A stretch of 35,022 nt of DNA from Deltaproteobacteria bacterium (lineage in GTDB: Bacteria; Desulfobacterota; Desulfuromonadia; Geobacterales; Pseudopelobacteraceae). Position 1 is the stretch's first letter. Each line of letters starts with the position of its first letter. A model generated the notes under the pieces. That model had not been told where the DNA came from. It did no database searches and saw only the letters and a list, made by a program, of their open reading frames with translations. The DNA is taken from positions 1-35,022 of the forward strand of contig JAJYCS010000019.1 in the NCBI GenBank assembly GCA_021778115.1, read 5' to 3'. A program made the translations under genes and the position numbers. This document shows, in pieces, positions 12,245-28,811 of the stretch.

Positions 12245-12290
12245 GGCGTTACCTCGTATAGGTTGGAGTCTCATAACGATATGGTCCCGG

Positions 12291-13673
12291 TTAGAAGGTG
12301 TAGGTAAAGGTCAGGCCACCGCCCCACAGCTGTCCGTTGGCATTCACCGATGCCTGTGAGGGTGCGGCGCCGGTCATGGCGTTCAGGTTGACGCTCTCGC
12401 CGCCGATCTGCCGCTTCTGCTCGGCGTAGGTGTACTGCACCACAGTGTCGAGGGTGAGATGTTTACCCATCTTGAAGCCGGCGCCAAGGGAGTAGGTCTT
12501 CTTGTCGGCATCAGGCCAGGTGAGGTCGAAGGTGGTATCGGGCACCGGGGAGGGATCGTAGAAATAACCGCCACGCAGGGCCAGCCACTCCAATGCCTGC
12601 CATTCGACGCCGATCCGGATCTGGTTGGTGTCGTTCCAGTTGCGGGCATAGGTCTTTGAGGTCGCCCCGCCCAGCACCACCAGGGGGGCACTGAAGTGGG
12701 CGGTGTAGGAGTCGATGATGCTCCAGTTGGTCCAGACGTAGTCAAGTTCCATGGAGACCGTCTTGATCGGCTGGTAGCGGACCCCGACCTGGACCTGTTG
12801 CGGGTGGTCAACCGAGACGGAGGTGTTGACCTTCTGGTTGATGGGGGAGCCGGCAACCGGGAACCCGGATACCTCGGTGGTCCCTTTGAAGTTGGTCTCG
12901 GTGCGGCTGCGGTAGGTGCCCCCCAGGGTGAGCGGCGTAAACGGCTTGTACATCACCCCCAGGTTGTAGGACCAGTTCAGGTCGTCCACCAGCTGGGTCT
13001 TGATCTTCCAGTTCTGGAACTGTCCGGCCGGACCGGTGGGGCTGCCGGCGAAGAGGTAGTGCTCGTCGCCGCTCTCGGAGCGGCCCAATGAGATACCGGC
13101 CCCGACGGAGAGCTGATCGGTGATCTTGTACGCCACCGTCGGTGTCAGCACTATCCGGTTGTACCACGAGTGGCTGGAGCTGTAGGCGGCCGGATCGGAA
13201 CTGGACCACTTGATGTCCAGCCCCCAGGGGACATAGGCGGCCAGCCCCACCGCCAGCCGGTTGTTGATCGGCATGGCAAAGCCCAGGTGCGGCACCGCCA
13301 TCACATCGGAGCGGTCATCCACATTGGTTGGGGGGATCAGGGTGCTTCCCGCCGGCGCTGTGCCTCCTGCTGCAGCGGTGGCGCCCAGGTCGTTGGCCTG
13401 CATGCTGGGAGCCAGCAGGTGGGCGCCGGCGGTGATGGTGGCGCTTTTGATCTGGGTGAGGCCGGCCGGGTTGTAGTAGGCGGCGAACGGGTCGTCGGCG
13501 GTGGCGGCGTAGGCCCCGCCCAGGGCCGTCGCCCGTGAGCCGATGCCGAAGGTGTCCACGTTACCCGCATAGGCGCTGCCGGCTGCCAGCATGATCCCGG
13601 TGACGGCGAGACGCTGGACGAGTCGTCGCGCGTCATCTCGTCTGCTGCTGCGCTTCTCTCTCTCTCTTCTCAT
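12291..13673 (-). CDS. fadL: FadL/OmpP1-type long-chain fatty acid outer-membrane channel
   Basis: A 460-residue outer-membrane beta-barrel that moves long-chain fatty acids across the outer membrane. A signal peptide with an unusually long, arginine-rich n-region (about 22 residues) ends near Ala36 (AAGSAYA). The mature N-terminus shows the family segment GSRATALGGAYAATADDPFAA and NPAGL at residues 68-72, equivalent to the plug/hatch of FadL. Alternating strands follow, and the protein ends in an aromatic residue (FTYTF), the usual barrel-assembly signal. AAAGGAGGG precedes the start. It is the first gene of a two-gene unit with the lipase and is divergent from the acyl-CoA synthetase. Aromatic-hydrocarbon transporters share this fold, but the neighbours favour fatty acids. 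Confidence 0.92.
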   Translation of the reverse strand: MRREREKRSSRRDDARRLVQRLAVTGIMLAAGSAYAGNVDTFGIGSRATALGGAYAATADDPFAAYYNPAGLTQIKSATITAGAHLLAPSMQANDLGATAAAGGTAPAGSTLIPPTNVDDRSDVMAVPHLGFAMPINNRLAVGLAAYVPWGLDIKWSSSDPAAYSSSHSWYNRIVLTPTVAYKITDQLSVGAGISLGRSESGDEHYLFAGSPTGPAGQFQNWKIKTQLVDDLNWSYNLGVMYKPFTPLTLGGTYRSRTETNFKGTTEVSGFPVAGSPINQKVNTSVSVDHPQQVQVGVRYQPIKTVSMELDYVWTNWSIIDSYTAHFSAPLVVLGGATSKTYARNWNDTNQIRIGVEWQALEWLALRGGYFYDPSPVPDTTFDLTWPDADKKTYSLGAGFKMGKHLTLDTVVQYTYAEQKRQIGGESVNLNAMTGAAPSQASVNANGQLWGGGLTFTYTF

Positions 13674-14043: not shown

Positions 14044-14075
14044 CTGGGATCAAATCCACTCAGGCGGGTGCCGTG

Positions 14076-15890
14076 ATGTCCGATATCACCTTCAGATCGA
14101 TCCCCGACATGCTGCGGAAAAACGCGGCGGCCTACGCCGGCCGGCTCGCCCTCAAGTACAAGAAGCAGGGGCGGTACGTCACCCTTACCTATGCTCAGTA
14201 CTATCAGCGGGCCCTGATGGTCTCCCGGGGGCTGGTCAAGCTGGGGATGCATCCGGGGGACCGGATCGCCATCCTTTCGGAAAACCGGGTCGGCTGGGTG
14301 ATCGCCGACATGGGGATACTGGCTGCCGGCTGCATCACCGTGCCGATCTATCCCACCAATACCCCGGAGATGGTCAAGTATGCCCTGAATCACTCCGGGG
14401 CGCGGGTGGTCTTCATCTCCAACACCTATCAGTACGCCAAACTGCTCAAGATCAAGGATGAGATCCCCCAGGTGGAGCTGGTGGTCTCCTTTGAGCGTTT
14501 CCTGGGGGAACAGGCCCTGCCGCTGACTACCTTCTACCAGCTCTCGGAGATCGACCTGCCGATCAGCCCGGCCGAACTGGTCTCCCTGGAGGCCGGCATC
14601 GATCAGGTGGGGCTGGATGACCCCCTGACCATCATCTATACCTCCGGCACCACCGGCGTCCCGAAAGGGGTGGTGCTGACCAACGCCAATATCCTGCACA
14701 ATGTTACCACGTTGCTCCATTCTCTCAAGGAGCTGGCTGAAGAAAACGTCATGCTCAGTTTTCTGCCGTTAAGCCATGTCCTGGAGCGGACCGCCGGCTA
14801 CTACACCACCATCGCCTCCGGGGCGATGATGGCCTTTGCCGAGAGCGTGGAGAAGGTGCCGGAGAATATGCTGGAGGTGCAGCCCACGGTGATTGTGAGT
14901 GTCCCGCGGCTGTTCGAGAAGATCTATTCCGGCATACTGGAGAACGTCCATCAGATGCCGACCCTGCGGAAAGAAATTTTTCACTGGGCGTTGAAGATAG
15001 GCAAGGAGTACGTCCAGCGGAAGTATGTCCGGCGGGAGTCGGTGGGGATGCTGCAGTTGAAATACAACCTGGCCGATCGCCTGGTGTTCGGCAAGGTGCG
15101 TGATCGGTTCGGCGGTCGGCTCAAGTTTTTCTGCTGCGGCGGGGCCCCCCTAGACAAGACCATCAACGAGTTTTTCTGGGCCATGGGACTGCCGATCCTA
15201 GAGGGGTATGGCCTGACCGAGACCAGCCCGGCGGTCAGTTTCAACCGTTTCACGGCGCTCCGCTTCGGTTCGGTGGGGATCCCCCTGGAGGGGACGGCGT
15301 TCAAGGTCGCCGACGACGGTGAACTGTTGATCAAGGGGCCCCAGGTGATGCAGAGCTACTACCATAACGACGAAGCCACCGCCGAGGCGTTCGAGGATGG
15401 CTGGTTCAAGACCGGAGACATGGGGCATATCGACGATAACGGCTTCATTTACATCACCGATCGGAAGAAGGAGCTGATCATTACCGCCGGCGGTAAGAAC
15501 ATCGCCCCGCAGCCGATCGAGAACGAACTGAAGCTGGACAAGTATATCTCCCAGGTCTTTGTGTACGGAGACCGGCGCCCCTATCTGGTGGCCCTTATCA
15601 CCCCCAACCTGGAGCGGCTGTTCGATTTCGCCCGCAGCAAACAGATTCATCACTTCGCACTGGATGACCTGGTCAGCAGCGAGCGGGTACGGGCTCTGTA
15701 TGAGGAGCGGATCAATGAGGCCAACAGTCGGCTGCCCCAGTATGAGACCATCAAGCGCTTTGTGCTGCTGCCGGTGGAGTTCTCCATCGAGGGAGGGGAA
15801 CTGACTCCGACCCTGAAGCTGCGGCGGAAGGTGATTCAGGAAAAGTACAAGGAAAAGATCGAGGCGATGTACAGCGACGGCAGCAATTAA
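14076..15890 (+). CDS. fadD: Long-chain acyl-CoA synthetase (AMP-forming)
   Basis: A 604-residue adenylate-forming enzyme that activates fatty acids with ATP and CoA. Motifs appear in order: the phosphate-binding loop YTSGTTGVPKG (Tyr188 onward), the adenine-site segment GYGLTETSPAVSFN, GWFKTGDMG, and the hinge and C-terminal segment DRKKELIITAGGKNIAPQPIE. The GKNIAPQPIE form and the length match the long-chain (FAA1/ACSBG-like) branch rather than acetyl-CoA synthetase. The start is taken as ATG 14076; a GTG directly before it at 14073 would add one residue. It is the first gene of the long + operon and is divergent from fadL, so import and activation of fatty acids share one control region. 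The next gene begins 37 bases after its stop. Confidence 0.93.
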   Translation: MSDITFRSIPDMLRKNAAAYAGRLALKYKKQGRYVTLTYAQYYQRALMVSRGLVKLGMHPGDRIAILSENRVGWVIADMGILAAGCITVPIYPTNTPEMVKYALNHSGARVVFISNTYQYAKLLKIKDEIPQVELVVSFERFLGEQALPLTTFYQLSEIDLPISPAELVSLEAGIDQVGLDDPLTIIYTSGTTGVPKGVVLTNANILHNVTTLLHSLKELAEENVMLSFLPLSHVLERTAGYYTTIASGAMMAFAESVEKVPENMLEVQPTVIVSVPRLFEKIYSGILENVHQMPTLRKEIFHWALKIGKEYVQRKYVRRESVGMLQLKYNLADRLVFGKVRDRFGGRLKFFCCGGAPLDKTINEFFWAMGLPILEGYGLTETSPAVSFNRFTALRFGSVGIPLEGTAFKVADDGELLIKGPQVMQSYYHNDEATAEAFEDGWFKTGDMGHIDDNGFIYITDRKKELIITAGGKNIAPQPIENELKLDKYISQVFVYGDRRPYLVALITPNLERLFDFARSKQIHHFALDDLVSSERVRALYEERINEANSRLPQYETIKRFVLLPVEFSIEGGELTPTLKLRRKVIQEKYKEKIEAMYSDGSN

Positions 15891-15927
15891 TCGAACGCAG
15901 AGAATGGCACGTACAAGGAGAGGCGCA

Positions 15928-18315
15928 ATGAGACAGATCAACAAGGCGGCAGTACTCGGCGCAGGGGTGATGGGGGCCACCATCGCCGCCCACCTGGCCA
16001 ACGCCGGCATCCCGGTGCTCCTGCTGGATATCGTCCCGCGGGAACCCAATGAAAGCGAGCAGCAGCAGGGGCTGACCCTGGCCGACCGTGCGGTGCGCAA
16101 CCGTTTTGCCGCCGCCGGGCTGGAGGGGCTGAGGAAGATGAAGCCAGCCCCGTTCTTCCTCCCCCACTACGCCGACCTGATCGAGGTGGGGAACTTCGAC
16201 GACGACATGGCCCGGCTCAAGGAGTGCGACTGGGTGATCGAGGTGGTGGTGGAGAACATGGCCATCAAGAAGCAGCTCTTCACCGAGAAGGTGGCCCCCA
16301 ACCTGAAGCCGGGGGCGATCCTTTCCACCAACACCAGCGGCCTGTCGGTGAACGAGATGGCGGCGGCACTGCCGGAAGAGCTGCAGCGGCGCTTCCTGGT
16401 CACCCATTTCTTCAACCCGCCCCGCTATATGCGTCTTCTGGAGATCGTCCCCTGCAGCGCCTGCGATCCGCAGGTGGTCGAATTCATGGCTGCCTTCATC
16501 GCCAAGCGTCTGGGCAAGGGGATCGTCTACGCCAAGGATACCCCCAACTTTATCGCTAACCGGATCGGCGTCTACGCCATCTGCAACAGCATCCGCACCA
16601 TGCAGGCGCTGGGCATGACCGTGGAGGAGGTGGATGCGGTGGCCGGCCCAGCCACGGCCCGCCCCAAGAGTGCCGCTTTCCGTACCGCCGATCTGGTGGG
16701 GATCGATACCCTGCGCCATGTGGCCAACAACTCCTTCGAGCTGCTTCCCGACGACGAGGAGCGGGAGGTGTTCCGTCTGCCCGCCTTCATGGATGAGATG
16801 GTGGCCAAGGGGCTGCTGGGGAACAAGAGCAGACAGGGGTTCTACAAAAAGGTGAAGGGAGAGCAGGGGACCCAGCTCTTCTACTACGATTACACCACCG
16901 GCGAGTATGCCGAAAGCAAACGGCCCAAGTTTGCCTCGGTGGAGGCGGCCAAGGGGATCGACGATCCAGGCAGGCGGCTGCAGGCGCTCCTGGCCGGCAG
17001 CGACAAGGGGGCGCAGTTTGCCTGGAAGAACGTGCGTGACTCCCTGATCTATACTCTGAACCGGATCCCTGAGATCGCCGACGACATCGTCAACGTGGAT
17101 AACGCCATGAAGTGGGGGTTCAACTGGGAGTTGGGGCCGTTCGAGATGCTTGACGCCATAGGCCCGGCCGCCTTTGTCCAACGGGCCGAGGCGGATGGGG
17201 TGACGGTGCCGGCATGCCTTAAGGAGGTGACGTCGTTCTACCGTTTTGAGGACAACCAGCCCCAATACTACTGCCTCCAGAGCAAGGAGTACCGGCCGGT
17301 GACGGTGGTGGCCGAGCGGCTCTCCCTGCAGGTCCTGAAACGTGCGGGGGGTGTTGTCGAGAAGAACAGCGGCGCCACCCTGGTGGACCTGGGGGACGGC
17401 GTCTTCGGCCTGGAGTTCCATACCAAGATGAACGCCATCGGCAACGAGATCCTCAGCATGATCCAGAAGTCCACCCGGTATGTGGAGGAGAACGGGGTCG
17501 GTCTGGTGATCGCCAACGAGGCGCCCCAGTTCTCGGTGGGGGCCAATCTGATGCTGCTGGCCATGGCGGTGGCGGAAGGGGCCTATGACGAGATCGCCCT
17601 GACGGTCAAGGGGTTCCAGAAGGCGATGATGGCGATCAAGTACGCCAAGGTGCCGGTGGTGGCGGCCCCCCATGGTCTGGCCCTGGGGGGCGGCTGCGAG
17701 ACCTGTCTGCATGCCGATGCGATCATCCCCCACGCCGAGACCTACATGGGGCTGGTGGAACTGGGGGTGGGGCTCTTGCCGGCCGGTGGTGGCACCAAGG
17801 AGATGGCGCTCCGGGCCATCCTCCTGGCCGAGCAGAACGAGTGCGACGTCCAGCCGTTCATCTTCAAGAACTTCATGAACATCGCCATGGCCAAGGTCTC
17901 CCTGTCCGCTGCCGAGCTGTTCGGTATGGGCTACCTGCGTCAGGGGGACGCCATCAGTATGGATATGGAACGGCGGATCTTCGATGCCAAGCAGAAGGCG
18001 CTTTCCCTGGCTGCAACCTACCGCCCCGGCGCCCCGCTGGTGAACCTGAAGGCGCCGGGCCGCAGCGTAGCCGCCAGTATCAAGTCTCAGCTCTGGAACA
18101 TGAAGGAGGGGGGCTTCATCTCCGCCTATGACGCCTCTCTGGCCGGTACGGTGGCCGAGGTGATCACCGGCGGCGATGTCCCGGCCGGCACCCTGATCAC
18201 CGAGGAGTACCTGCTGCAGCTGGAGCGGGAGGCCTTTGTCCGGCTCTGTGGCCAGAAGAAGACCGCGGAACGGATCCAGCATATGCTCAAAAAGGGGAAG
18301 CCGCTCCGCAACTAG
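15928..18315 (+). CDS. fadN: 3-hydroxyacyl-CoA dehydrogenase/enoyl-CoA hydratase (FadN type)
   Basis: A 795-residue beta-oxidation protein. The N-terminus is a 3-hydroxyacyl-CoA dehydrogenase NAD domain (VLGAGVMGATIAAH, a GxGxxG fingerprint), followed by dehydrogenase C-terminal helices and then a crotonase-like domain near the C-terminus (about residues 470-640; ANEAPQFSVGANL and GLALGGGCETCLHAD). This order, dehydrogenase first and crotonase last, is the reverse of E. coli FadB and matches Bacillus FadN (YusL). The length also fits. The start at 15928 is chosen because AAGGAG lies eight or so bases before it; an in-frame ATG at 15904 has no ribosome site. The following thiolase and acyl-CoA dehydrogenase complete a fadN-fadA-fadE order. 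Confidence 0.92.
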   Translation: MRQINKAAVLGAGVMGATIAAHLANAGIPVLLLDIVPREPNESEQQQGLTLADRAVRNRFAAAGLEGLRKMKPAPFFLPHYADLIEVGNFDDDMARLKECDWVIEVVVENMAIKKQLFTEKVAPNLKPGAILSTNTSGLSVNEMAAALPEELQRRFLVTHFFNPPRYMRLLEIVPCSACDPQVVEFMAAFIAKRLGKGIVYAKDTPNFIANRIGVYAICNSIRTMQALGMTVEEVDAVAGPATARPKSAAFRTADLVGIDTLRHVANNSFELLPDDEEREVFRLPAFMDEMVAKGLLGNKSRQGFYKKVKGEQGTQLFYYDYTTGEYAESKRPKFASVEAAKGIDDPGRRLQALLAGSDKGAQFAWKNVRDSLIYTLNRIPEIADDIVNVDNAMKWGFNWELGPFEMLDAIGPAAFVQRAEADGVTVPACLKEVTSFYRFEDNQPQYYCLQSKEYRPVTVVAERLSLQVLKRAGGVVEKNSGATLVDLGDGVFGLEFHTKMNAIGNEILSMIQKSTRYVEENGVGLVIANEAPQFSVGANLMLLAMAVAEGAYDEIALTVKGFQKAMMAIKYAKVPVVAAPHGLALGGGCETCLHADAIIPHAETYMGLVELGVGLLPAGGGTKEMALRAILLAEQNECDVQPFIFKNFMNIAMAKVSLSAAELFGMGYLRQGDAISMDMERRIFDAKQKALSLAATYRPGAPLVNLKAPGRSVAASIKSQLWNMKEGGFISAYDASLAGTVAEVITGGDVPAGTLITEEYLLQLEREAFVRLCGQKKTAERIQHMLKKGKPLRN

Positions 18316-18357: not shown

Positions 18358-19530
18358 ATGAAGACGGCATATATCCTGGCGGCCTGCCGTACCGCCGGAT
18401 GCAAGGCAAAAAAAGGTGGTTTCAGGGATATGCGTCCCGACGATCTGGCGGCGGCGGCCATTGCCGGGCTGCTGGCACGGACCGGCGCCGACCCGCTGGA
18501 GGTGGAGGATATCCTGATGGGCTGCGCCTTCCCGGAGGGTGAGCAGGGGATGAATATGGCCCGCGTGGCGGCCATGAAGGCCGGACTGCCGTTTCAGGTG
18601 CCGGCCCAGACCGTGAACCGGTTTTGCTCTTCGGGGCTGCAGACCATCGCCTCGGCAGCGGAGCGGATCATGGCCGGGTTTGCTGACTGCATCATCGCCG
18701 GCGGCGCCGAGAGCATGACCATGATCCCGATGGGGGGGAGCAAGTACAGTGCTAACCCCGCCCTGGTGGCCACCTGGCCCGAGTCCTTCGCCTCCATGGG
18801 GGTGACCGCCGAGAAGGTGGCTGCCCAGTACGAGGTCAGTCGCGAGGATCAGGACGCCTTTGCCGCTGCCAGCCATCAGAAGGCGGCCGCCGCCATCGCT
18901 GCCGGACGCTTTGCCGACGAAATCGTTTCGGTGGAGGTGGAGTCCTGCAACCTGGTGAACGGTAAAATGGTGCGTAGCACGCAGCTGATTGCCGAAGACG
19001 ATGGCGTGCGGGGGGATACCACCGCGGCCGGCCTGGCCAAGCTGAAGCCAGCCTTCAGGACAGACGGCTCGGTCACCGCCGGCAACTCCTCCCAGATGAC
19101 CGACGGCGCCGCCGCGGTGATGGTGGTCTCCGAGGAATATCTCAAACGGGTCGGCAAAGACCCTCTGGCCCGTTTTGTCGCCTTTGCCGTGCGGGGGGTG
19201 CCGCCGGAGATCATGGGGATCGGTCCGGTGGAGGCGATACCGGCGGCCCTGCGTCTGGCCGGACTGCAGCAGGATGAGATCGGCCTGCTGGAGTTAAACG
19301 AGGCCTTCGCCTCCCAGTCCCTGGCCTGCATCCGCACTCTGGGGCTCGACCAGGCCCGGATTAACGTTAACGGCGGCGCCATCGCCCTGGGGCATCCCCT
19401 GGGCTGCACCGGCGCCAAACTGACCGCCACCCTCCTGCACGAGATGCAGCGGAGCAGCACCCGCTACGGCATGGTCTCCATGTGCATCGGCGGTGGGATG
19501 GGTGCGGCAGGGATCTTTGAACGGGTCTGA
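18358..19530 (+). CDS. fadA: Acetyl-CoA C-acyltransferase (3-ketoacyl-CoA thiolase)
   Basis: A 390-residue thiolase that cleaves 3-ketoacyl-CoA to acetyl-CoA and a shortened acyl-CoA. The nucleophilic Cys90 is in VNRFCSSGLQTIA. The other catalytic elements are NEAFASQ, GGAIALGHPLGCTGAKL (catalytic His) and the C-terminal CIGGGMGAAGIFE with the acid/base Cys. Length is normal and no key residue is missing. AGGAGG stands just before the ATG. It is 42 bases downstream of fadN and 33 bases upstream of fadE. Placement with FadN supports a degradative rather than biosynthetic thiolase. Chain-length preference cannot be read from sequence. Confidence 0.94.
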   Translation: MKTAYILAACRTAGCKAKKGGFRDMRPDDLAAAAIAGLLARTGADPLEVEDILMGCAFPEGEQGMNMARVAAMKAGLPFQVPAQTVNRFCSSGLQTIASAAERIMAGFADCIIAGGAESMTMIPMGGSKYSANPALVATWPESFASMGVTAEKVAAQYEVSREDQDAFAAASHQKAAAAIAAGRFADEIVSVEVESCNLVNGKMVRSTQLIAEDDGVRGDTTAAGLAKLKPAFRTDGSVTAGNSSQMTDGAAAVMVVSEEYLKRVGKDPLARFVAFAVRGVPPEIMGIGPVEAIPAALRLAGLQQDEIGLLELNEAFASQSLACIRTLGLDQARINVNGGAIALGHPLGCTGAKLTATLLHEMQRSSTRYGMVSMCIGGGMGAAGIFERV

Positions 19531-19563
19531 ATGACCTCTCAACCATAGCGAAGGAGAACAACC

Positions 19564-21342
19564 ATGGCAGCTCGACTGTTTAAAGGATCCGAATACCTGA
19601 TCACGGAAGTAGGCAAGGACGACATCTTTACCCCGGAAGATTTTACCGACGAGCAGAAACAGATCGGCGAGACCACGGAGCAGTTTGTGATCAACGAGGT
19701 GCTCCCCCGGCGTGACGAGATCGAACACCAGGATTTCACCATCAATGTCGCCCTGATGAAGCGGTGCGGCGAACTGGGGCTGCTGATGATCGACGCGCCG
19801 GAGGCCTATGGCGGGCTGGACCTGGACAAGGTCACCAGCATGCTGGCCGCCGAAAAGATCTCCCAGGCCGGCTCCTTCTCGGTCACCTACACGGCCCACA
19901 CCGGCATCGGCACCTTGCCGCTGGTCTACTACGGCACCGACGCGCAGAAGGAGAAGTACCTCGGCAAGCTGGTCTCCGGCGAGTGGGTGGCCGCCTACTG
20001 CCTCACCGAACCCGGATCCGGCAGCGATGCCCTGGGGGCCGCCGCCACCGCCACCCTGTCGCCGGACGGTACCCATTATATCCTGAACGGCACGAAACAG
20101 TTCATCACCAACGGCGGGTTCGCCGACCTCTACACGATCTTTGCCAAGATTGACAAGCAGCAGTTCACGGCCTTCCTCGTGGAACGGACCACCGAAGGCC
20201 TCTCCATAGGGGCTGAGGAGAAGAAGATGGGGGTGAAAGGTTCCTCCACCACCCAGGTCATCCTGGAAGATGCCAAGGTGCCGGTGGAAAACCTGCTGGG
20301 TGAGATCGGCAAAGGGCACAAGATCGCCTTCAACGTCCTGAACATCGGTCGTTTCAAGCTCGGTGCGGCGACCACCGGCGCGTCGAAGCAGGCGATCGCC
20401 GAAGCGCTGCGCTATGCAAAGGAACGGAAGGCGTTCGGTGTCCCGATTGCCACCTTCGGCGCCATCGGCGAGAAGTTTGCCGACATGGCGGCTGAGATCT
20501 TCGCCTCCGAGGCGGTGGTCTACCGCCTGGCAGGTATGATTGATGACCGCCTCGCCACCATACCGAAAGAGACCCCGGACTATTACGACGCCTATCTCCA
20601 GGGGATCGAGGAGTATTCCATCGAATGCGCCATCGCCAAGGTCTTCTGCAGCGAGGTGTTGGCCCATGTGGTGGATGAGGTGCTGCAGGTCTTCGGCGGC
20701 TACGGCTTCACCCAGGAGTACCCTGCCGAGGGGTTCTACCGTGACGAGCGGATCAACCGGATCTGGGAAGGGACCAATGAGATCAACCGGCTGCTGATCC
20801 CCGGCACCATCCTGCGTCGGGCCATGAAGGGGGAGATCCCGCTGCAGAAAGAGGCGATGAAGGCCTTTGAGTCCCTGATGTCTCCCGATTTCGTGGAGCT
20901 GGACGAGACGGTGCCGTTTGCCGCTGAAAAGGCGTTGCTGGCCAACCTGAAGAAGGCGTTCCTGGTGCTGGCCGGTAGCGGTGTGCAGAAGTTCATGGAC
21001 AAGATCAAGGATGAGCAGGAGGTGCTGCTGGCCGCCGCCGATATCGCCATCAACATCTTCGCCATTGAGAGCGCGGTGTTGCGGGCCGAGAAGATCATGC
21101 CCCGCCTGAGCGAGGCCCGTCGTGCAGCGGTGAGCGCCGCCGTCAAGGTCTTCACCTTCAGCGCCACCGAGACCGTCGGCACCGCCGCCCGCAAGGCCGC
21201 CTACTACGTGGAGGAGGGGGATACCCTGACCATGCTGCTGGCCGGGGTGCGCCGTTTCACCAAGTACGACGCCACCGGCCTGCTGCCGGCCAAGCGTTGC
21301 CTGGCCGCGGCCTGTCTGGATGCGGAGCGGTATCTGTTTTGA
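19564..21342 (+). CDS. fadE: Acyl-CoA dehydrogenase (Bacillus FadE/YusJ-like)
   Basis: A 592-residue flavoprotein that oxidises acyl-CoA to trans-2-enoyl-CoA and hands electrons to electron-transfer flavoprotein. The N-terminus FTPEDFTDEQKQIGETTEQF resembles the Bacillus YusJ/FadE and VLCAD-like family, as does the extra C-terminal helical domain that makes it longer than the usual 380-residue enzymes. FAD-site segments (CLTEPGSGSDA, KQFITNGGFADLYTIFA) are intact, and Glu402 in IWEGTNEINR is in the position of the catalytic base of medium-chain enzymes. A strong ribosome site (GAAGGAG) precedes the ATG. ETF genes are not in the window, but an HdrD-like oxidoreductase at the right edge may be part of the electron route. 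Confidence 0.93.
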   Translation: MAARLFKGSEYLITEVGKDDIFTPEDFTDEQKQIGETTEQFVINEVLPRRDEIEHQDFTINVALMKRCGELGLLMIDAPEAYGGLDLDKVTSMLAAEKISQAGSFSVTYTAHTGIGTLPLVYYGTDAQKEKYLGKLVSGEWVAAYCLTEPGSGSDALGAAATATLSPDGTHYILNGTKQFITNGGFADLYTIFAKIDKQQFTAFLVERTTEGLSIGAEEKKMGVKGSSTTQVILEDAKVPVENLLGEIGKGHKIAFNVLNIGRFKLGAATTGASKQAIAEALRYAKERKAFGVPIATFGAIGEKFADMAAEIFASEAVVYRLAGMIDDRLATIPKETPDYYDAYLQGIEEYSIECAIAKVFCSEVLAHVVDEVLQVFGGYGFTQEYPAEGFYRDERINRIWEGTNEINRLLIPGTILRRAMKGEIPLQKEAMKAFESLMSPDFVELDETVPFAAEKALLANLKKAFLVLAGSGVQKFMDKIKDEQEVLLAAADIAINIFAIESAVLRAEKIMPRLSEARRAAVSAAVKVFTFSATETVGTAARKAAYYVEEGDTLTMLLAGVRRFTKYDATGLLPAKRCLAAACLDAERYLF

Positions 21343-21378
21343 ATGGGCAGCTAACCTTCATGATCAGCGGAGTAAGCA

Positions 21379-22557
21379 ATGAATATCCATGAGTATCAGG
21401 CGAAGGCGATATTGAGGAAGTTTGGGGTGCCGGTACCGGACGGTCATGTCTGTTACAACGGCAACAGCGCCCGTGAGTGGTCCAAGCGGCTGGGTCCGGG
21501 TCCGTGGGTCGTCAAGGCCCAGATTCACGCCGGCGGCCGTGGCAAGGGGGGCGGTGTCAAACTGGCCCGCACCCCCGACGAAGTGCGGAGCACCGCCCGC
21601 GACATGCTGGGAATGGTCCTGCGGACCCACCAGACCGGCCCTGAAGGGAAAGTCGTCACCCGTGTCCTGGTGGAAAACGGCTGCAGCATCGCACGGGAGC
21701 TCTACCTGAGCCTCGTCGTCGACCGGGCCAGCTCGCGGGTCAGCCTCATGGCCTCCACCGAAGGGGGCATGGAGATCGAAGAAGTAGCCGCCAACAGCCC
21801 GGACAAGATCGTCATCGAGACCGTCGACCCCCTGGTGGGGCTCACCGGATTCCAGTGCCGGACCATCGCCTTCGCCCTTGGGCTCACCGGCCCCCTGCTG
21901 CCCAAAGCGGTCAAACTGCTCGGCAATCTCTACACCACCTTCCTGGCCTGCGACTGCTCCATGCTGGAGATCAACCCCCTCGTCGTCACCACCGACAACG
22001 ACCTGCTGGCCCTGGACGCCAAATTCGGCTTTGACGACAACGCCATCTTCCGTCACCTGCAGATCGCCGACATGCGGGATTACGACGAAGAAGACCCCAA
22101 CGAGATCGAAGCCTCCCAGCACGACCTCTCCTACATCTCCCTGGACGGCACCATCGGCTGCCTCGTCAACGGCGCCGGCCTGGCCATGGCCACCATGGAC
22201 ATCGTCAAACACTACGGCGGCGCGCCGGCCAACTTCCTCGACGTCGGCGGCGGTGCCACCATCGAGCGGGTTACCGAGGCGTTCAAAATCATCCTTTCCG
22301 ACCGCAAGGTCAAAGGGATACTGGTCAACATCTTCGGCGGCATCATGAAATGCGACATCATCGCTACCGGTGTCGTCGAAGCGGCCAAACAGGTCTCCCT
22401 CCAGGTTCCCCTGGTGGTACGGCTTGAAGGGACCAACGTCCAACAGGGGAAACAGATCCTGGCCGAAAGCGGCCTGAATATCATCGCCGCCGACGGCATG
22501 GCCGACGCGGCCCAAAAGATCGTCGCCGCCGTAGGCCAGGAGGGGAGCAGACCATGA
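21379..22557 (+). CDS. sucC: Succinate-CoA ligase (ADP/GDP-forming) beta subunit
   Basis: A 392-residue ATP-grasp subunit that, with SucD, converts succinyl-CoA to succinate with formation of a nucleoside triphosphate. The N-terminus [20 protein letters not shown] is typical. The ATP-grasp domain ([26 protein letters not shown]) and the C-terminal CoA-ligase domain ([33 protein letters not shown]) are complete. It overlaps sucD by four bases. From roughly 21500 onward codon choice differs from the neighbours: Val is mostly GTC and Lys often AAA, whereas the flanking genes prefer GTG and AAG. This may reflect a different origin or recombination. Presence inside a beta-oxidation operon suggests a dedicated copy rather than the general TCA-cycle enzyme. 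Confidence 0.95.
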
Positions 22558-23429
22558 GTATCCTGATCAACCGCGAAACCCGAGTCATCACCCAGGGGAT
22601 CACCGGCGCCACCGGGCTCTTCCACGCCCAGGGGGCCCGTGACTACGGCACCCAGATGGTCGGGGGGGTCACCCCCGGCAAAGGTGGCACCGTCATCGAC
22701 GGCTTCCCGGTCTTCGACACCGTCCGTGCCGCCGTAGCCGCCACCGGAGCCACCGCCTCCGTTATCTACGTACCGCCCCCCTTTGCCGCCGACTCCATCA
22801 TGGAGGCGGTAGAGGCCGGCATCGACCTGGTCATCTGCATCACCGAAGGGATCCCGGTCCTGGACATGGTCAAGGTCAAACAGTACCTGCGGGGCAGCCG
22901 CACCCGTCTCATCGGCCCCAACTGCCCCGGGGTCATCACCCCCGGCCAGTGCAAGATCGGCATCATGCCGGGCTACATCCACAAACCGGGGAAGGTCGGC
23001 GTCGTCTCCCGCTCAGGAACGCTCACCTATGAGGCCGTCTGGCAACTCACCTCCATCGGCCTTGGCCAATCCACCTGCGTCGGCATCGGCGGCGATCCGG
23101 TCAACGGCACCAGCCACCTTGAGGTGCTGCGGATGTTCGAGGAAGACCCCGACACCGAAGCGGTCATCATGATCGGCGAGATCGGCGGCAGCGCCGAAGA
23201 AGAGGCGGCCCGGTTCGTGAAGGACCACATGACCAAGCCGGTGGCCGGGTATATCGCCGGCCGCACCGCGCCGCCGGGCAAGCGGATGGGCCATGCCGGG
23301 GCGATCATCGCCGGCGGCAAGGGGACGGCAGCCGAGAAGGTCGCGGTCCTGGAGGAGTGCGGCATTGCCGTGGCGCCAACACCCGCAGATATGGCCCAGG
23401 CCCTCATGACCGTCTACAGGCCCAAGTAG
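22554..23429 (+). CDS. sucD: Succinate-CoA ligase alpha subunit
   Basis: A 291-residue subunit carrying the CoA-binding Rossmann domain ([19 protein letters not shown] family segment at the N-terminus) and the phospho-acceptor His247 in [16 protein letters not shown], matching His246 of the E. coli enzyme. [11 protein letters not shown] and [11 protein letters not shown] are intact. The ATGA overlap with sucC fixes the start. The GTC-rich codon style seen in sucC continues through most of the gene and returns to the local GTG/GAG style near 23200, within the gene rather than at its end. With sucC it would generate succinate and ATP or GTP during acetyl-CoA oxidation. Confidence 0.95.
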
Positions 23430-23441
23430 GGAGGGCGCCCG

Positions 23442-24398
23442 GTGACCGTCATGACCATCCGACAGCATACCGTGCCCACCCCCTACATGGTGGGGCCGGT
23501 CCATTTCTACAGCGCCGAGCATGAAGACGGTCTGGTGCTGTTCGATACCGGCCCTCCCACGCCGGAGGGGGAAGCGGCCCTGCGGGGGGAGGTGGATCTC
23601 GGCCGGTTGCGCTACGCCCTGATCACCCATTGTCATGTCGATCATTACGGCCTGGTGAATCTGCTGCTTAAGGAGAGTGCCGCCGAGGTGTTGATCCCCC
23701 GTAGCGACGCCCTCAAGCTGCGGCACCACGAGGAGCGGCTGGCCAGGATCAGCGAGCTGCTGGCCGGGTATGGCTTCGACCGTGCCTTCCGCGAGCAGTT
23801 ACAGGAGTCCTTTGAGCGGAACCGGATCTTCCCCGAGGCGCCGGAGCGGTTCAGTATCGTCGAGGAGTCGGATCTGCCGGCCCGCCTGGGGATCCGGTTC
23901 GTCTCCTGTCCCGGTCACTCCCAGAGCGATCTGGTCTACCTGCATGGCGACAGCGCCATCAGCGGCGATGTGCTGCTGCGGGGGATCTTTCAGGCGCCGC
24001 TTCTGGACCTCGATCTGGAGACCTTTCAGGGCCGGTTCAACAACTACCGGGCCTACTGCCGCTCCCTGGCCGATCTGGGCCGGTTGTGGGGCTACCGGAT
24101 CCTGCCCGGTCACCGGGAGTATCTGGACGGGGTGGACGCCACCATCCTCTGGTATGTGCGGACCCTGCTGCAGCGCGCGGCACTGGTCCTCCCCCTGCGC
24201 CACCTGCCGGTGAGCGAGATCGCAGCCCAGCTGTTCCGGGGGAGGATCACCGATCCATTTCTGATCTACCTGAAGGTCTCGGAGATCGTCTGTATGCTCG
24301 ATCTCATCGCACAACCCGACCTGCTGGCTGATGCCCTGGCGGGGATCGGCCTGCTGGAACCGGTGGCCGACTGTTTTGCACCGTTGCACAGGGGGTGA
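23442..24398 (+). CDS. MBL-fold metallo-hydrolase
   Basis: A 318-residue metallo-beta-lactamase-fold hydrolase of the glyoxalase II-like branch. The dinuclear metal motif HxHxDH is complete: His63, His65, Asp67, His68. A further His in CPGHSQSD and the Asp in ISGDVLL supply the remaining ligands. A C-terminal helical region of about 100 residues follows. A GTG start at 23442 is preferred over ATG 23451 because GGAGGG lies six bases before the GTG but 15 before the ATG. It sits 12 bases after sucD and 3 bases before the dienoyl-CoA reductase, so it is part of the operon. Substrate is unknown; an acyl thioester is a reasonable guess from context and fold. Confidence 0.82.
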   Translation: MTVMTIRQHTVPTPYMVGPVHFYSAEHEDGLVLFDTGPPTPEGEAALRGEVDLGRLRYALITHCHVDHYGLVNLLLKESAAEVLIPRSDALKLRHHEERLARISELLAGYGFDRAFREQLQESFERNRIFPEAPERFSIVEESDLPARLGIRFVSCPGHSQSDLVYLHGDSAISGDVLLRGIFQAPLLDLDLETFQGRFNNYRAYCRSLADLGRLWGYRILPGHREYLDGVDATILWYVRTLLQRAALVLPLRHLPVSEIAAQLFRGRITDPFLIYLKVSEIVCMLDLIAQPDLLADALAGIGLLEPVADCFAPLHRG

Positions 24399-24401
24399 AC
24401 C

Positions 24402-26405
24402 ATGTCTGATCCGCTGTTTCAACCGATAACCATACAGGGTATGACCTTGTCAAACCGGATCGTCATGCCGGCCATGCACCTGAACATGGCCCGCCGCTAT
24501 GAGGTGACGGACCAGTTGGTGGCGTTCTACGCCGAGCGGGCCAAGGGGGGGGCAGCCCTGATCACGGTGGGATACGCCACCGTGGATGAACGTTCCGGCA
24601 ACCCAGGCAACATCGGCGCCCACCGGGACCATCTGATCCCCGGCCTTGCCCGGCTGGCAACGGCCATCAAGGAGCAGGGGAGCCGCGCGGCGGTGCAGCT
24701 GAACCATGCCGGACGGTACAACCACTCCATGCTGATGGGGGGCAAGCGGCCAGTGGCCCCGTCGCCGGTCCCGTCTCGTCTCACCCGGGAAGAGCCGGAG
24801 GAGTTGAACCAGGCCGGCATCGACGAACTGGTCGCCGCCTTTGCCGCAGCGGCAAAGCGGGTGCAGCGGGCCGGTTTCGACGCGGTGGAGATCCTGGCCG
24901 GCACTGGCTACCTGATCAGTTCCTTTCTCTCTCCCTACACCAACCGCCGCAGCGACGGCTACGGCGGCCCATTTGACAACCGCTGCCGGTTCGGTCTTGA
25001 GGTGGTCGCGGCGGTGCGGGCCGCGGTGGGACCGCGTTTCCCTCTGATGGTCCGGATGAACGGCAACGATTTCATGCCCGGCGGCAACAGCAGGCAGGAG
25101 CTGCAGGAGTTCGCCGTCCGCCTGGAACAGGCCGGCGTAGACGCCCTCTGCGTCAACGTGGGGTGGCATGAGGCCAGGGTTCCCCAGATCGTCACCGAGG
25201 TCCCCCGGGGGATGTTCGGGTACCTGGCTCGGGGGATCAAGGAACGGGTATCGGTGCCGGTCATCGCCAGCCATCGGATTAACGATCCGGCCACGGCCCG
25301 CAGGCTACTGGAGGCCGGTGATTGCGATCTGGTGGCGATGGGGCGGGCACTGATCGCCGATCCCCAGTTGCCGGTAAAGGCCAGGGAGGGTGAGGAGGCG
25401 GAGATCGTCCACTGCGTGGCCTGCGCGCAGGGCTGTTTCGACAACCTCTTCAAGATGAAGAGCGTCGAGTGTCTCTGCAACCCCAGGGCCGGCCACGAAC
25501 AGGAGTGGCGGCTCGAGCGGGTGAGCCGTCCCCGCAAGGTTCTGGTGGTGGGTGGCGGTCCGGCCGGGATGAGCGCGGCCCTGGCAGCGGCCCAGCGGGG
25601 GCACCGGGTCATGCTTCTTGAGCAGAAGGGGCGTCTGGGGGGGCAGCTACAGCTGGCCGGCGCTCCGCCGGGACGCCATGAGTTCCTGACCCTGGCCGCC
25701 GATCTTGAGCATCAGCTGCTCTGGAACGGGGTACAGGTGGCCCTGGGACAGGCGGTGGACCTGCCGATTATCGAGGCCAAACAGCCCGATCTGGTGGTGC
25801 TGGCCACCGGCGGCGAGCCGGTCAGGCCACCGATTCCGGGGGTCGAGCTGCCCCAGGTGGTGCAGGCCTGGCAGGTGCTGGCCGGTGAGGTTACGGTGGG
25901 ACGGCGGGTGGTGGTGATCGGTGGCGGCGCCGTGGGGGTGGAGACCGCCCTTCTGTTGGCCGAGGAGGGGAGCCTCACCGGAGAGGAACTGAAGTTCCTG
26001 CTGGTCCATGGTGCTGAGACCCCGGATGAGCTGCGTCGTCTGGCGCTCAAGGGGTACCGTGAGGTGACCGTGGTGGAGATGGTGGATGAGCTGGGGCTGA
26101 ACTTCGGCCGCAGCACCCGCTGGGGGATGCTGTTGGACCTGGAACAGACCGGCATCAAGGCCCTCACCGAGAGCAGGGTGCTGGAGATTACGCCGACCGA
26201 GGTGCTGCTTGAACGGGCCGGGAGTAAGGAACGGCTGGTAGCCGATACGGTGGTGCTGGCGGTGGGGACCAGGCCCTGCAATCCCCTTGAACAGGGGTTG
26301 GTGGCCCGGGGTATCCCGTACCGGCTGGTGGGGGACGCCGCATCGCCGGGGATGGTGTTTGACGCCATCCATCAGGGGTTTGCGGCAACCGCATCCTATG
26401 AGTGA
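24402..26405 (+). CDS. fadH: 2,4-dienoyl-CoA reductase (FadH-type, FMN/FAD/4Fe-4S)
   Basis: A 667-residue old-yellow-enzyme-family reductase. The N-terminal TIM barrel (about 1-335) binds FMN and substrate (MPAMHLNMA; HAGRYNHSM). The [4Fe-4S] cysteines are Cys338, Cys341, Cys345 and Cys357, with exactly the spacing of E. coli FadH. FAD (VLVVGGGPAGMSAALAAA) and NAD(P) (RVVVIGGGAVGVETALLLAE) binding folds follow. The enzyme would reduce 2,4-dienoyl-CoA made during breakdown of unsaturated acids. Enoate reductases and trimethylamine dehydrogenase share this layout, but the neighbouring fad genes and the isomerase downstream favour FadH. AGGGGGTGAACC precedes the ATG, which is three bases after the previous stop. 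Confidence 0.87.
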   Translation: MSDPLFQPITIQGMTLSNRIVMPAMHLNMARRYEVTDQLVAFYAERAKGGAALITVGYATVDERSGNPGNIGAHRDHLIPGLARLATAIKEQGSRAAVQLNHAGRYNHSMLMGGKRPVAPSPVPSRLTREEPEELNQAGIDELVAAFAAAAKRVQRAGFDAVEILAGTGYLISSFLSPYTNRRSDGYGGPFDNRCRFGLEVVAAVRAAVGPRFPLMVRMNGNDFMPGGNSRQELQEFAVRLEQAGVDALCVNVGWHEARVPQIVTEVPRGMFGYLARGIKERVSVPVIASHRINDPATARRLLEAGDCDLVAMGRALIADPQLPVKAREGEEAEIVHCVACAQGCFDNLFKMKSVECLCNPRAGHEQEWRLERVSRPRKVLVVGGGPAGMSAALAAAQRGHRVMLLEQKGRLGGQLQLAGAPPGRHEFLTLAADLEHQLLWNGVQVALGQAVDLPIIEAKQPDLVVLATGGEPVRPPIPGVELPQVVQAWQVLAGEVTVGRRVVVIGGGAVGVETALLLAEEGSLTGEELKFLLVHGAETPDELRRLALKGYREVTVVEMVDELGLNFGRSTRWGMLLDLEQTGIKALTESRVLEITPTEVLLERAGSKERLVADTVVLAVGTRPCNPLEQGLVARGIPYRLVGDAASPGMVFDAIHQGFAATASYE

Positions 26406-26430
26406 TCCAGAGATGAGAAAGGGGCAAACG

Positions 26431-27000
26431 GTGGCAAACCATCTTACCAGAGGTGTTGTGACGCTCTGCTTGCTGCTGTTCACGGCGTTGCCGGTGCGGG
26501 CCATGACGGTATACGGCGTATCAGTGGACAACGCGGTCACCATGAATGGACAGACCTTGCAGCTGAACGGATTTGGTCTCCGTACCAAATGGTTCTTCAA
26601 GATCTATGTCGGCGCCTTCTACGTACCCCAGTTGATCCATACCAGCGCTGAGGCGGTCAGGTACCAGGGTGACCGCTTGATTCGCCTCCATTTTGTGTAC
26701 AGCAAAGTCTCGCGGGACAAGGTGCTGGAGGCGTTGAATGAGGCGTTTGAGAACAATTCTCCGGGCTTTACCGGCACCGCCGATGCCCGTCAGTTCAGAT
26801 CCTGGTTCAGCCATGATTTTCTCCGAGGGGATCAGTTGGACTTGGCGTTGGGTGCTGACAGCAGTGTGGTGGTGACGCATAATGGTCGGTTGCTCGGTTC
26901 CATGATCTCAAAGCCGTTACAAGCAGCGATCATGCGCGCCTTTTTCGGCGTGTATCCTGCCGATGAGGCACTCAAACGAGGTATGCTCGGGATGCTTTAG
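26431..27000 (+). CDS. Secreted chalcone isomerase-like protein, copy A
   Basis: A 189-residue exported protein with a chalcone-isomerase-like domain. A signal peptide (hydrophobic core VVTLCLLLFTALPVRA) is followed by the domain: LNGFGLRTKWFFKIYVGAFY, LHFVYSKV, ENNSPGFTGTADAR, FLRGDQLDL, HNGRLLG and PADEALKRGMLG. GTG 26431 is chosen as start because AAAGGGG lies about six bases before it; in-frame ATGs at 26398 and 26413 have no ribosome site. The fold is related to plant fatty-acid-binding proteins, and bacterial members usually have no known catalysis. It lies between fadH and the enoyl-CoA isomerase and closely resembles copy B. Likely role: binding fatty acids in the periplasm (inference). 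Confidence 0.78.
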   Translation: MANHLTRGVVTLCLLLFTALPVRAMTVYGVSVDNAVTMNGQTLQLNGFGLRTKWFFKIYVGAFYVPQLIHTSAEAVRYQGDRLIRLHFVYSKVSRDKVLEALNEAFENNSPGFTGTADARQFRSWFSHDFLRGDQLDLALGADSSVVVTHNGRLLGSMISKPLQAAIMRAFFGVYPADEALKRGMLGML

Positions 27001-27022
27001 GACCCGGTAAAGGACGTCGACC

Positions 27023-27796
27023 ATGACTACAACGATGACAGGGATAGAGGCTGCCGAGGCCGAGGGGATCCTGACCCTGCGGATCAACCGGCCTGACAAG
27101 AAAAACGCCCTCACGCCGGCCATGTATGAAGGACTCACCGCCGGCCTGCGCCGGGCCGACCAGGACCAGGGGATCAGGGCGGTCATTATCACCGGCGGTG
27201 ATGCCTGTTTTACCGCCGGCAACGACCTGCAGGACTTTCTCCAGACCCCGCCTTTGGGGGAAGAAAGTCCGGTGATGCAGTTTCTGCTTACCATCAGCGA
27301 GACTCGAACCCCGATTGTGGCGGCCGTAAACGGCGTGGCGGTGGGGGTGGGCACCACCATGCTGCTGCACTGTGACCTGGTGGTGGCCGCCGAGGACGCC
27401 CTGTTCCAGATGCCGTTTGTCAACCTGGGGCTGTGCGCCGAGGCCGCCTCAACCCTGCTCATGCCCCAGTTGATGGGGCAGCGGCGGGCGGCCGAACTGC
27501 TGCTGCTGGGTGAACGGTTCTCACCGCGGCAGGGCGTTGCAGTTGGTCTGGTCAACCGGGTGGTGCCTGCCTACGAAGTGGCCACGGTCGCCCGGCAGCT
27601 GGCCGTTGCCCTGGCTGCCCAACCCCCCGATGCCCTGCAGTTGACCAAGCGGCTGCTGAAAGCGGCAAACAGCAGCGCGGTGCGGGAGACCATCCTGGCC
27701 GAGGGACGCCATTTTGCCGAACTGTTACGTCGGCCTGAGGCCAAAGAGGCCTTAAGCGCCTTTCTTGAACATCGTCCCCCTGATTTTTCCCGCTGA
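27023..27796 (+). CDS. Enoyl-CoA isomerase of crotonase superfamily (ECI2-like)
   Basis: A 257-residue crotonase-fold protein. The oxyanion-hole segments ITGGDACFTAGNDLQDF and VAAVNGVAVGVGTTMLLHCD are clear. The hydratase Glu in the usual PE position is replaced by Phe (FQMPFVNLGLCAEAAS), whereas Glu140 in CAEAAS aligns with the catalytic Glu of peroxisomal/ECI2-type delta3,delta2-enoyl-CoA isomerases (PF-x2-LG-x2-xE pattern). It is therefore better read as an isomerase that moves a 3-double bond to the 2-position than as a hydratase. This fits with fadH two genes upstream, since both are needed for unsaturated chains. AAAGGA precedes the ATG. It stands between the two chalcone-isomerase-like genes. 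Confidence 0.85.
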   Translation: MTTTMTGIEAAEAEGILTLRINRPDKKNALTPAMYEGLTAGLRRADQDQGIRAVIITGGDACFTAGNDLQDFLQTPPLGEESPVMQFLLTISETRTPIVAAVNGVAVGVGTTMLLHCDLVVAAEDALFQMPFVNLGLCAEAASTLLMPQLMGQRRAAELLLLGERFSPRQGVAVGLVNRVVPAYEVATVARQLAVALAAQPPDALQLTKRLLKAANSSAVRETILAEGRHFAELLRRPEAKEALSAFLEHRPPDFSR

Positions 27797-27843
27797 TATG
27801 CAGCGCAGATATTACTCTCATGGAGAGCACAAGGAGTGAACCG

Positions 27844-28398
27844 ATGAAGAGATTGCTGGTGGTGATCAGTATGTTGTGTCTCTGGACCGGCACGGCCTCA
27901 GCCCTGCAGGTGGCCGGTGTCAACCTGAGCCCTGTTCTGCAGTTGCATAACCGGACGTTGCACCTAAACGGCTACGGCATCCGGAAGAAGTTTTTCTTCA
28001 AGATCTACGTGGGGTCACTGTACAGCGTCGATCGCCTGACCTCCGGCGAGGCAGCCCTGCGGGACAGCGGCGATAAGCTGATCCGGATGAACTTTCTCTA
28101 CAGCCGGGTTGAACCGGAGAAGATCGTGGAGGCCTTTGCTGATGGGCTCCGTGAAAATAGCCCAGCTGTGGCGGGGACTGCCGATGCCAGGCGTTTTCTT
28201 GGACTCTTCCGTAACGATTTCGTCCGGGGGGATCAGGTTGACCTCTACCTCGGCGGTGACGGCACGGTAACCGCCAGTCACAACGGCCGCCTGCTGGGGG
28301 TGCTGCACTCGGTGCCGCTGGCACGGGCGGTACTGGCCATCTACCTGGGGCAGAATCCGGCCGATGACGATCTGAAGGCAGGGATGTTGGGGCACTAA
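27844..28398 (+). CDS. Secreted chalcone isomerase-like protein, copy B
   Basis: A 184-residue exported protein paralogous to copy A, alignable over the whole mature domain almost without gaps. A signal peptide (LLVVISMLCLWTGTASA) is followed by LNGYGIRKKFFFKIYVGSLY, MNFLYSRV, ENSPAVAGTADARRF, FVRGDQVDLYLG, HNGRLLG and PADDDLKAGMLG. The start at 27844 has AAGGAG just upstream; the in-frame ATG at 27820 has none. Conserved aromatic and basic positions in the FFKIYVG strand are shared with copy A, while strand surfaces differ, so the two may have distinct ligands or form a heterodimer. Proposed role: periplasmic fatty-acid or acyl-lipid binding. No enzymatic function is claimed. Confidence 0.8.
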   Translation: MKRLLVVISMLCLWTGTASALQVAGVNLSPVLQLHNRTLHLNGYGIRKKFFFKIYVGSLYSVDRLTSGEAALRDSGDKLIRMNFLYSRVEPEKIVEAFADGLRENSPAVAGTADARRFLGLFRNDFVRGDQVDLYLGGDGTVTASHNGRLLGVLHSVPLARAVLAIYLGQNPADDDLKAGMLGH

Positions 28399-28406
28399 GG
28401 AGTCTG

Positions 28407-28811
28407 ATGATGCGCGAGTATACCACCTCTATCGAGGTTCGCTTTGCCGATCTGGACCTGTACGGCCATGTCAACGGGGTGGCCTACTTCACCTTCATGG
28501 AGACCGCCCGGGTCAAGCTGTTCAGTGCACCGTTTAGGGAGCTGACCCGGCAGGGGGTCTTCCTGGTGGTGGCACGGGCCGAATGCTCCTACGCCCAGCC
28601 GATCCTGCCGGGAGATTCCGTGCTGGTCACCATCTCCGTGTCGAGGATCGGCGGCAGCAGCTTCGAGTTGTCCTATCGGTTGCACGACGGCGCTGGCAAG
28701 GAATACGCCGTTGCCAGTACCACCATGGTCTGTTTTGATAACACAGCCAAGCGCCCGGTGCCGATTCCGGAGCAGCTCAGCCAGCTGCTGCACGATGAAG
28801 ACTCAGTCTGA
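28407..28811 (+). CDS. Acyl-CoA thioesterase, 4HBT/YbgC hotdog family
   Basis: A 134-residue single-hotdog thioesterase. The active-site motif FADLDLYGHVNGVAYFTFME matches the 4-hydroxybenzoyl-CoA thioesterase/YbgC group, with the catalytic Asp in the DLYGHVN segment. The rest (ARAECSYAQPILPGDSVLVTISV and SFELSYRL) is the normal hotdog sheet. Two adjacent ATGs (28407, 28410) follow GGAG; either could be the start. It would hydrolyse acyl-CoA to release CoA, useful as overflow relief when beta-oxidation stalls. Eight bases separate it from copy B and 12 from the chemoreceptor. Confidence 0.87.
   Translation: MMREYTTSIEVRFADLDLYGHVNGVAYFTFMETARVKLFSAPFRELTRQGVFLVVARAECSYAQPILPGDSVLVTISVSRIGGSSFELSYRLHDGAGKEYAVASTTMVCFDNTAKRPVPIPEQLSQLLHDEDSV

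Follow-up and report, generated by a model that had tools for sequence, protein, structure and literature searches.

Paired chalcone isomerase-fold proteins with signal peptides in a fatty acid degradation operon of a Geobacterales bacterium: candidate periplasmic fatty acid carriers

Results

Gene content of the locus

The window analyzed here, a stretch of 35,022 nucleotides (the entire contig JAJYCS010000019.1, positions 1 to 35,022, assembly GCA_021778115.1, from a Deltaproteobacteria bacterium of the Geobacterales), carries on its plus strand a run of genes in the order fadD-fadB-fadA-fadE-sucC-sucD-MBL-fadH-like-CHI_A-ECH-CHI_B-fadM-like, which extends from 14073 to 28811 (Table 1). The intergenic gaps along the series fadH-like/CHI_A/ECH/CHI_B/fadM-like measure 8 to 47 bp, which supports a single transcription unit; promoter and terminator scans gave no signal above shuffle level, and the fadL-fadD intergenic region showed no convincing operator repeat. 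Both the gene order and the Pfam matches bear out the arrangement described in the first-pass annotation, that is, two paralogues bracketing a crotonase gene within a beta-oxidation operon. The same annotation had called the product of the bracketed gene an enoyl-CoA isomerase; here, the assignment to the crotonase family stands (PF00378, 183 bits), whereas the more specific name reaches no equivalog in NCBIfam. The glutamate in the LGLCAEAAS segment of this protein presumably fits the Eci/PECI type of isomerase.

Table 1. Coordinates of the fatty acid-related genes and their neighbors in the window
Feature	Coordinates	Strand	Evidence
VolA/Pla-1-like lipoprotein lipase	9800..12274	-	lipobox LALGC, GISLG nucleophile motif
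FadL-family outer-membrane transporter, divergent from fadD	12291..13673	-	PF03349 226 bits
fadD-like acyl-CoA ligase, first gene of the run	14073..15890	+	PF00501 273.5 bits
fadB-like hydroxyacyl-CoA dehydrogenase/crotonase	15904..18315	+	PF02737/PF00378; NF052272 593 bits
fadA thiolase	18358..19530	+	PF00108/PF02803
fadE acyl-CoA dehydrogenase	19564..21342	+	NF058590 860 bits, cutoff 600
sucC and sucD (succinyl-CoA ligase)	21379..23429	+	NF001913 587 bits, NF004230 480 bits
MBL-fold protein	23442..24398	+	PF00753 60.7 bits; conserved in relatives
FadH/BaiCD-like OYE flavoenzyme, probable 2,4-dienoyl-CoA reductase	24402..26405	+	PF00724 229 bits
CHI_A, PF16036 chalcone isomerase-fold protein, predicted to be exported	26413..27000	+	PF16036 135.3 bits, signal peptide, model
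Crotonase-family protein, probable enoyl-CoA isomerase	27023..27796	+	PF00378 182.9 bits
CHI_B, PF16036 chalcone isomerase-fold protein, predicted to be exported	27844..28398	+	PF16036 140.9 bits, signal peptide, model
FadM/YbgC-like hot-dog thioesterase	28407..28811	+	PF13279 78 bits

The gene for the VolA-like lipase follows fadL on the same strand, and its product scores 141.5 bits against TIGR03502, below the curated cutoff of 383.9, and 22.1 bits against PF12262, just below 22.3. Taken together, the VolA-like lipase, FadL, the FadD-like ligase, and the beta-oxidation enzymes point to one lipid-scavenging module, and the FadH-like, isomerase-like, and thioesterase genes suggest that its substrates include unsaturated chains. 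A similar lipase-fadL pair occurs in locus L075 and in the gammaproteobacterial locus L107. The presence of sucC and sucD within the fad operon is, among the loci inspected, common only to UBA4074 (L083/L028); the MBL-fold gene between fadE and the fadH-like gene is kept in nearly all copies of the operon. Elsewhere in the window, at 7944-9698, a rhodanese-like protein partly resembles ExtH, which belongs to selenite/tellurite reduction operons (135 bits, below the cutoff of 200).

Both CHI_A and CHI_B are real open reading frames, and all of the motifs that had been read from the sequence—LNG(F/Y)G, FFKIYVG, GTADAR, RGDQxDL, HNGRLLG, and PADx3KxGMLG—are found in both copies. That each copy has a separate signal peptide, as also proposed, agrees with the sequence once the start codons are slightly corrected. 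CHI_A may start at the ATG at 26413 or at the in-frame GTG at 26431, its signal peptide ending in VRA with either and its mature domain beginning at about 26500. The longer open reading frame of CHI_B begins at 27820; its start is most likely the ATG at 27844, with the Shine-Dalgarno sequence AAGGAG at 27831-27836, from which the signal peptide reads MKRLLVVISMLCLWTGTASA and the mature protein begins at 27904. Both proteins are predicted to be exported to the periplasm via this Sec signal peptide, and since sites of the same AxA type are present, as judged by eye, in CHI_A, CHI_B, and nearly all homologues inspected, export appears to be a family trait.

CHI_A and CHI_B cover the full PF16036 (Chalcone_3) model, from position 1 to 165 and from 2 to 165, respectively, with scores five times the curated cutoff of 27 bits. 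The two proteins share 46% identity over 179 amino acids (E = 4e-58), which argues for true paralogy, and they represent the only PF16036 loci in the source genome (2.29 Mb).

Fold and ligand-site residues

AlphaFold2 models of the mature proteins reached a mean pLDDT of 96.8 for CHI_B and 95.5 for CHI_A and matched the chalcone isomerase (CHI) fold over the whole domain (Z 17-20 over 158-163 residues, rmsd 2.1-2.9), with Z scores of 17-19 for CHI_A and 18-20 for CHI_B. The plant fatty acid-binding proteins (FAPs) AtFAP1 and AtFAP3 match both models at Z of about 17-18, which confirms the fold relation suggested by the first-pass annotation. CHI and CHIL match equally well or slightly better, so that the fold alone gives no pointer to fatty acids. 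The fungal proteins Aim18p/Aim46p follow with Z 15-17 and chloroplast FtsHi subunits (8xks, 8xqw) with Z 10-12; for both models, the next unrelated folds stayed at Z 4.0 or less, and Foldseek or VIA searches gave nothing notable outside the CHI fold.

A profile built from 75 homologues reached AtFAP1 (4doo) at 1e-14, AtFAP3 (4dol) at 6e-11, the CHI ancestors at 2e-5, and CHIL at 0.13, with no match to the fungal hemoproteins at E up to 1. By this measure, the nearest solved relatives are the FAPs rather than CHI, CHIL, or the fungal hemoproteins. Five residues (L21, G23, G25, R27, and Y35 in mature CHI_B numbering) are invariant in 75 of 75 homologues and Y40 is present in 74 of 75; across the same set, no His or Cys is conserved. 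In the profile alignment, R27 and Y35 align with the Arg and Tyr of AtFAP3, and CHI_A and CHI_B thus seem to carry a FAP-type site signature, consisting of the Arg in LxGxGxR and a subsequent Tyr. We take R27 and Y35 to be equivalent to Arg103 and Tyr116 of AtFAP1, and the Y35 position to be that of Thr48 in CHI. Judged by spacing, Tyr40, which lies 13 residues past Arg27, had been a candidate for the counterpart of AtFAP1 Tyr116; it was dropped because the profile alignment puts Tyr35 there, the difference being due to a 4-5 residue insertion in the plant proteins. When the Arg and Thr48 positions of the CHI catalytic residue set (Arg, Thr48, Tyr106, and others) were mapped, the Arg was found to be kept and the Thr48 site appeared to be Tyr35 (alignment through 4dol). 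In the CHI fold, the pocket Arg lies within the motif LxGxGxR (PMC9996372); CHIs and FAPs have this Arg, whereas CHILs lack it (PMC10276294).

With AtFAP1 and AtFAP3, then, CHI_A and CHI_B share the full-length CHI fold, the pocket Arg, and the Tyr (seen in 4dol), and no catalysis is expected of either group. The bacterial proteins are shorter (∼164 compared to ∼205 amino acids): they lack about 25 residues that lead, in the plant proteins, from the VKVY strand to the following helix, close to where the ligand enters, and their pocket may accordingly differ in shape. Unlike AtFAP1 and AtFAP3, they are encoded in a fad operon, carry predicted Sec signals for export to the periplasm, and have a putative ligand. 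Plant CHI and CHIL have the same fold with weaker sequence similarity, CHIL being devoid of the pocket Arg. The yeast proteins Aim18p/Aim46p likewise have the fold and the LxGxGxR Arg motif and differ in an extra fungal loop, their location at the inner mitochondrial membrane, and their heme ligand.

Gene neighborhoods, genome surveys, and phylogeny

The neighborhoods of the homologues were compared over 79 loci from named genomes, with locus genes identified by tblastn plus HMM; 50 loci fall in a Desulfuromonadia-type clade (L045-L094) and 29 in L095-L123. A codirectional fad-operon gene lies less than 1.5 kb away in 41 of the 50 clade loci, a number that is a lower bound, since not every contig is long enough for a verdict, and that does not count independent events, since the loci share ancestry. 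At 36 of the 50, fadA/B/D/E is found within 8 kb. The usual order is fadH-like, CHI, fadM-like, with the fadH-like gene upstream in 33 of 43 and the fadM-like gene downstream in 28 of 38 scored cases.

Outside the clade, fad-operon linkage was seen in 2 of the 29 loci (L095-L123). Looking at individual loci, both in Desulfuromusa (L090) and in a proteobacterial MAG (L095) fadL lies ∼70 bp upstream of CHI; in L107, which is gammaproteobacterial, CHI and FadD are divergently oriented, and FadL and a VolA-like gene are found at a distance of 5-8 kb; in Sideroxydans (L116, L118), CHI adjoins fadA on its downstream side, with FadL and FadB-type genes upstream; and in L121, FadE and FadD are upstream of CHI. 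Linkage to uptake or beta-oxidation genes is therefore found in independent lineages (41/50 in the clade; L095, L107, and L116/L118). The neighborhood survey that had been suggested as a check on the carrier idea thus gave a divided answer: the fatty acid link is strong in the clade of CHI_A and CHI_B and present in a few independent lineages, but it does not extend to PF16036 as a whole. Accordingly, among the bacterial "chalcone isomerase-like" proteins of PF16036 (Chalcone_3), of which CHI_A and CHI_B are full-length members, their clade is tied to fad operons and others are not.

Several loci showed other arrangements. In L171 (7683-12284), a PF16036 gene is followed by a gene for a protein with an SCP2 (sterol carrier) domain and by acyl-CoA ligase and thiolase genes, and in a deep-sea MAG (L087, 10001-11500), two tandem PF16036 genes lie downstream of a fadH-like gene in what seems an independent duplication. 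A diverged second PF16036 paralogue of Geobacteraceae is located in a lipid modification cluster (L043, 4669-12328, and the related L038-L044) with genes for CMAS, DUF1365, amine oxidase, DUF1295, DUF2177, DUF1475, and DUF1499, a membrane-lipid setting that fits general lipid binding more than beta-oxidation in particular. In L168 (8403-9380), a PF16036 gene lies beside genes for ferrochelatase and a flavin amine oxidase, which bears on a possible heme ligand in that branch. Long open frames around CHI in two genomes (G231 and G411) were considered as fusions and rejected; they look spurious, given that in G231 the neighboring FadE is in a different frame.

In a tree of 126 sequences, the fad-linked genes, apart from those of Sideroxydans, fall into a single clade that has good support and comprises 60 rows (46 of them labeled fad). 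A separate tree set of 46 rows, mostly from other Desulfobacterota, contains no fad-linked gene, and its neighbors include genes for ferrochelatase, an AI-2E transporter, and homoserine dehydrogenase. The linkage to fatty acid genes is therefore strong in one clade and not family-wide. CHI_A groups with a gene that occupies the corresponding place in the UBA4074 operon (L083), and with L096 and L097; the pair is therefore older than the split of the source genome from UBA4074. The genomes that carry these last two CHI_A-type genes, both Trichlorobacter-like (G004 and G010), yielded neither a FadL nor an ortholog of the operon FadE, so that no strict tie to beta-oxidation holds for the CHI_A type.

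A survey of 57 genomes around the source found PF16036 in 19 and FadE (E below 1e-150) in 16, and the 10 genomes with an operon-type FadE of at least 78% identity are exactly the 10 with PF16036 in the operon. None of the three genomes with a FadE at 73% has PF16036 in the operon; two carry it elsewhere, and one (G052), which also has FadL, carries none, so that the PF16036 protein is not obligatory. The named Geomonas species (L048, L052, and L065) also have PF16036 elsewhere, off the operon. Across 395 genomes of the phylum, with PF16036 in 90, FadL in 196, and FadE in 78, FadE occurs in 41 of the 90 genomes with PF16036 compared to 37 of the 305 without it (odds ratio 6.1, P = 6e-11), and FadL in 59 of 90 compared to 137 of 305 (odds ratio 2.3, P = 7e-4), both P values being optimistic because kinship is ignored. 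No PF16036 was found in 14 control genomes, E. coli included.

Discussion

Escherichia coli takes up and degrades fatty acids, and we know of no dedicated periplasmic fatty acid carrier described in this organism. FadL delivers fatty acids into the outer membrane and FadD traps them inside, and the step between was called "still unclear" in a 2022 review on E. coli (PMC9329746). The locus described here encodes a FadL homologue and a FadD-like ligase as well, consistent with the same vectorial uptake logic; unlike the E. coli system, it encodes a duplicated exported putative binder alongside the pathway.

Our preferred explanation, to which we give about an even chance and which we consider the best single one, is that CHI_A and CHI_B act as periplasmic fatty acid carriers. 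Its starting points are computed: the family, the export signals, the fold, the invariant site residues, and the membership in an operon together with the conservation of that membership. On this basis, CHI_A and CHI_B would be noncatalytic CHI-fold binders secreted to the periplasm as part of a lipid-scavenging/beta-oxidation module. The VolA-like surface lipase would release fatty acids, which FadL would carry across the outer membrane; CHI_A and CHI_B would then take up the free acid, holding its carboxylate at the invariant Arg27/Tyr35 and its acyl chain in the space that separates the beta-sheet from the helices. Once loaded, the CHI protein would ferry the acid over the periplasm as far as the inner membrane; there the acid would flip in, and FadD would trap it as the acyl-CoA substrate of FadE/B/A. 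Unsaturated chains would be dealt with by the isomerase and by the FadH-like and FadM-like enzymes. Fatty acid as the ligand, the direction of shuttling, and a benefit from the second copy, which may lie in chain length preference or dosage, are the parts of this scheme that we infer. The carrier role is thus putative, although much better supported than by a reading of the sequence alone. Against it speak the yeast CHI-fold proteins that bind heme, the mostly fad-free neighborhoods of PF16036 genes beyond this clade, the CHI_A-type genes in genomes that yielded no FadL and no operon FadE, the genome with FadE and FadL that does without PF16036, and the lack of PF16036 in E. coli, which nevertheless uses fatty acids. 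A bolder claim, for which we put the chances somewhat short of even, is that these proteins, as CHI-fold shuttles from FadL to FadD, are the first dedicated periplasmic fatty acid carriers to be recognized in Gram-negative bacteria, and that plant FAP, and then CHI, descended from a bacterial periplasmic lipid binder.

CHI_A and CHI_B could instead serve as a periplasmic fatty acid buffer or lipid homeostasis factor rather than as a ferry to FadD, binding free fatty acids or lysolipid-derived acyl chains and thereby protecting the envelope or feeding membrane-lipid remodeling. The diverged Geobacteraceae paralogue in its membrane-lipid cluster (L043) and the occurrence of CHI_A-type genes in genomes without a detected FadL or operon FadE speak for such a role; yet CHI_A and CHI_B sit in a degradation operon and their position there is kept over deep divergences, and we regard a buffer as unlikely, if a realistic prospect.

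The fungal proteins make a heme ligand a serious rival. Aim18p/Aim46p have the same fold (Z 15-17), share four of the five site residues of FAP1, and keep the Arg, which they require for heme, and they bind heme and not fatty acids (PMC9996372), a precedent that prevents fold and site residues from settling the ligand. By analogy, CHI_A and CHI_B would be periplasmic hemoproteins with a redox or sensing role, their conserved Arg serving heme instead of a carboxylate. This is quite unlikely in our estimation, as the 75 homologues show no conserved His or Cys, the profile misses the fungal proteins at E up to 1 and reaches the plant FAPs at 1e-14, and the operon context is acyl metabolism.

Slightly less probable still is a role in contacting protein partners, for example, in assisting FadL or the lipase to fold or dock, with no small molecule as physiological ligand. 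CHIL provides the model, using the CHI fold noncatalytically for protein-protein contact when it assists chalcone synthase (PMC10276294); against it, the pocket Arg, absent from known CHILs (PMC10276294), is invariant in the homologues studied here. The CHI fold also occurs in the chloroplast FtsHi motor subunits (8xks, 8xqw), and fadL is immediately upstream in L090 and L095. Finally, a periplasmic enzyme, with a chalcone isomerase-like activity on flavonoids or as an acyl isomerase, would agree with the CHI fold and the retained catalytic Arg but is highly improbable, given that there are no flavonoid genes nearby and that the Thr48 position of CHI (an equivalence that we assume) appears in the profile alignment as Tyr35, as in AtFAP3. 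The ancestor of CHIs is reported, in work cited by PMC9996372, to be noncatalytic.

The CHI fold and its fatty acid-binding relatives are known already; what we consider new is an exported bacterial form that is encoded within a fad operon and may account for the missing step in the periplasm. In the open-licence literature, we found no paper proposing an exported bacterial CHI-fold protein of a fad operon as a periplasmic carrier, and on the function of bacterial PF16036/CHI-like members this literature gave plant and fungal work only. A small, soluble, duplicated, exported protein in the fad operon of many Geobacterales, with a fold that includes proven fatty acid binders, makes the question of how fatty acids pass from FadL to FadD a testable one. 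If the carrier role is true, it would be the first function for bacterial PF16036 and would inform the debate on whether the ancestral ligand of the chalcone isomerase fold was a fatty acid or heme.
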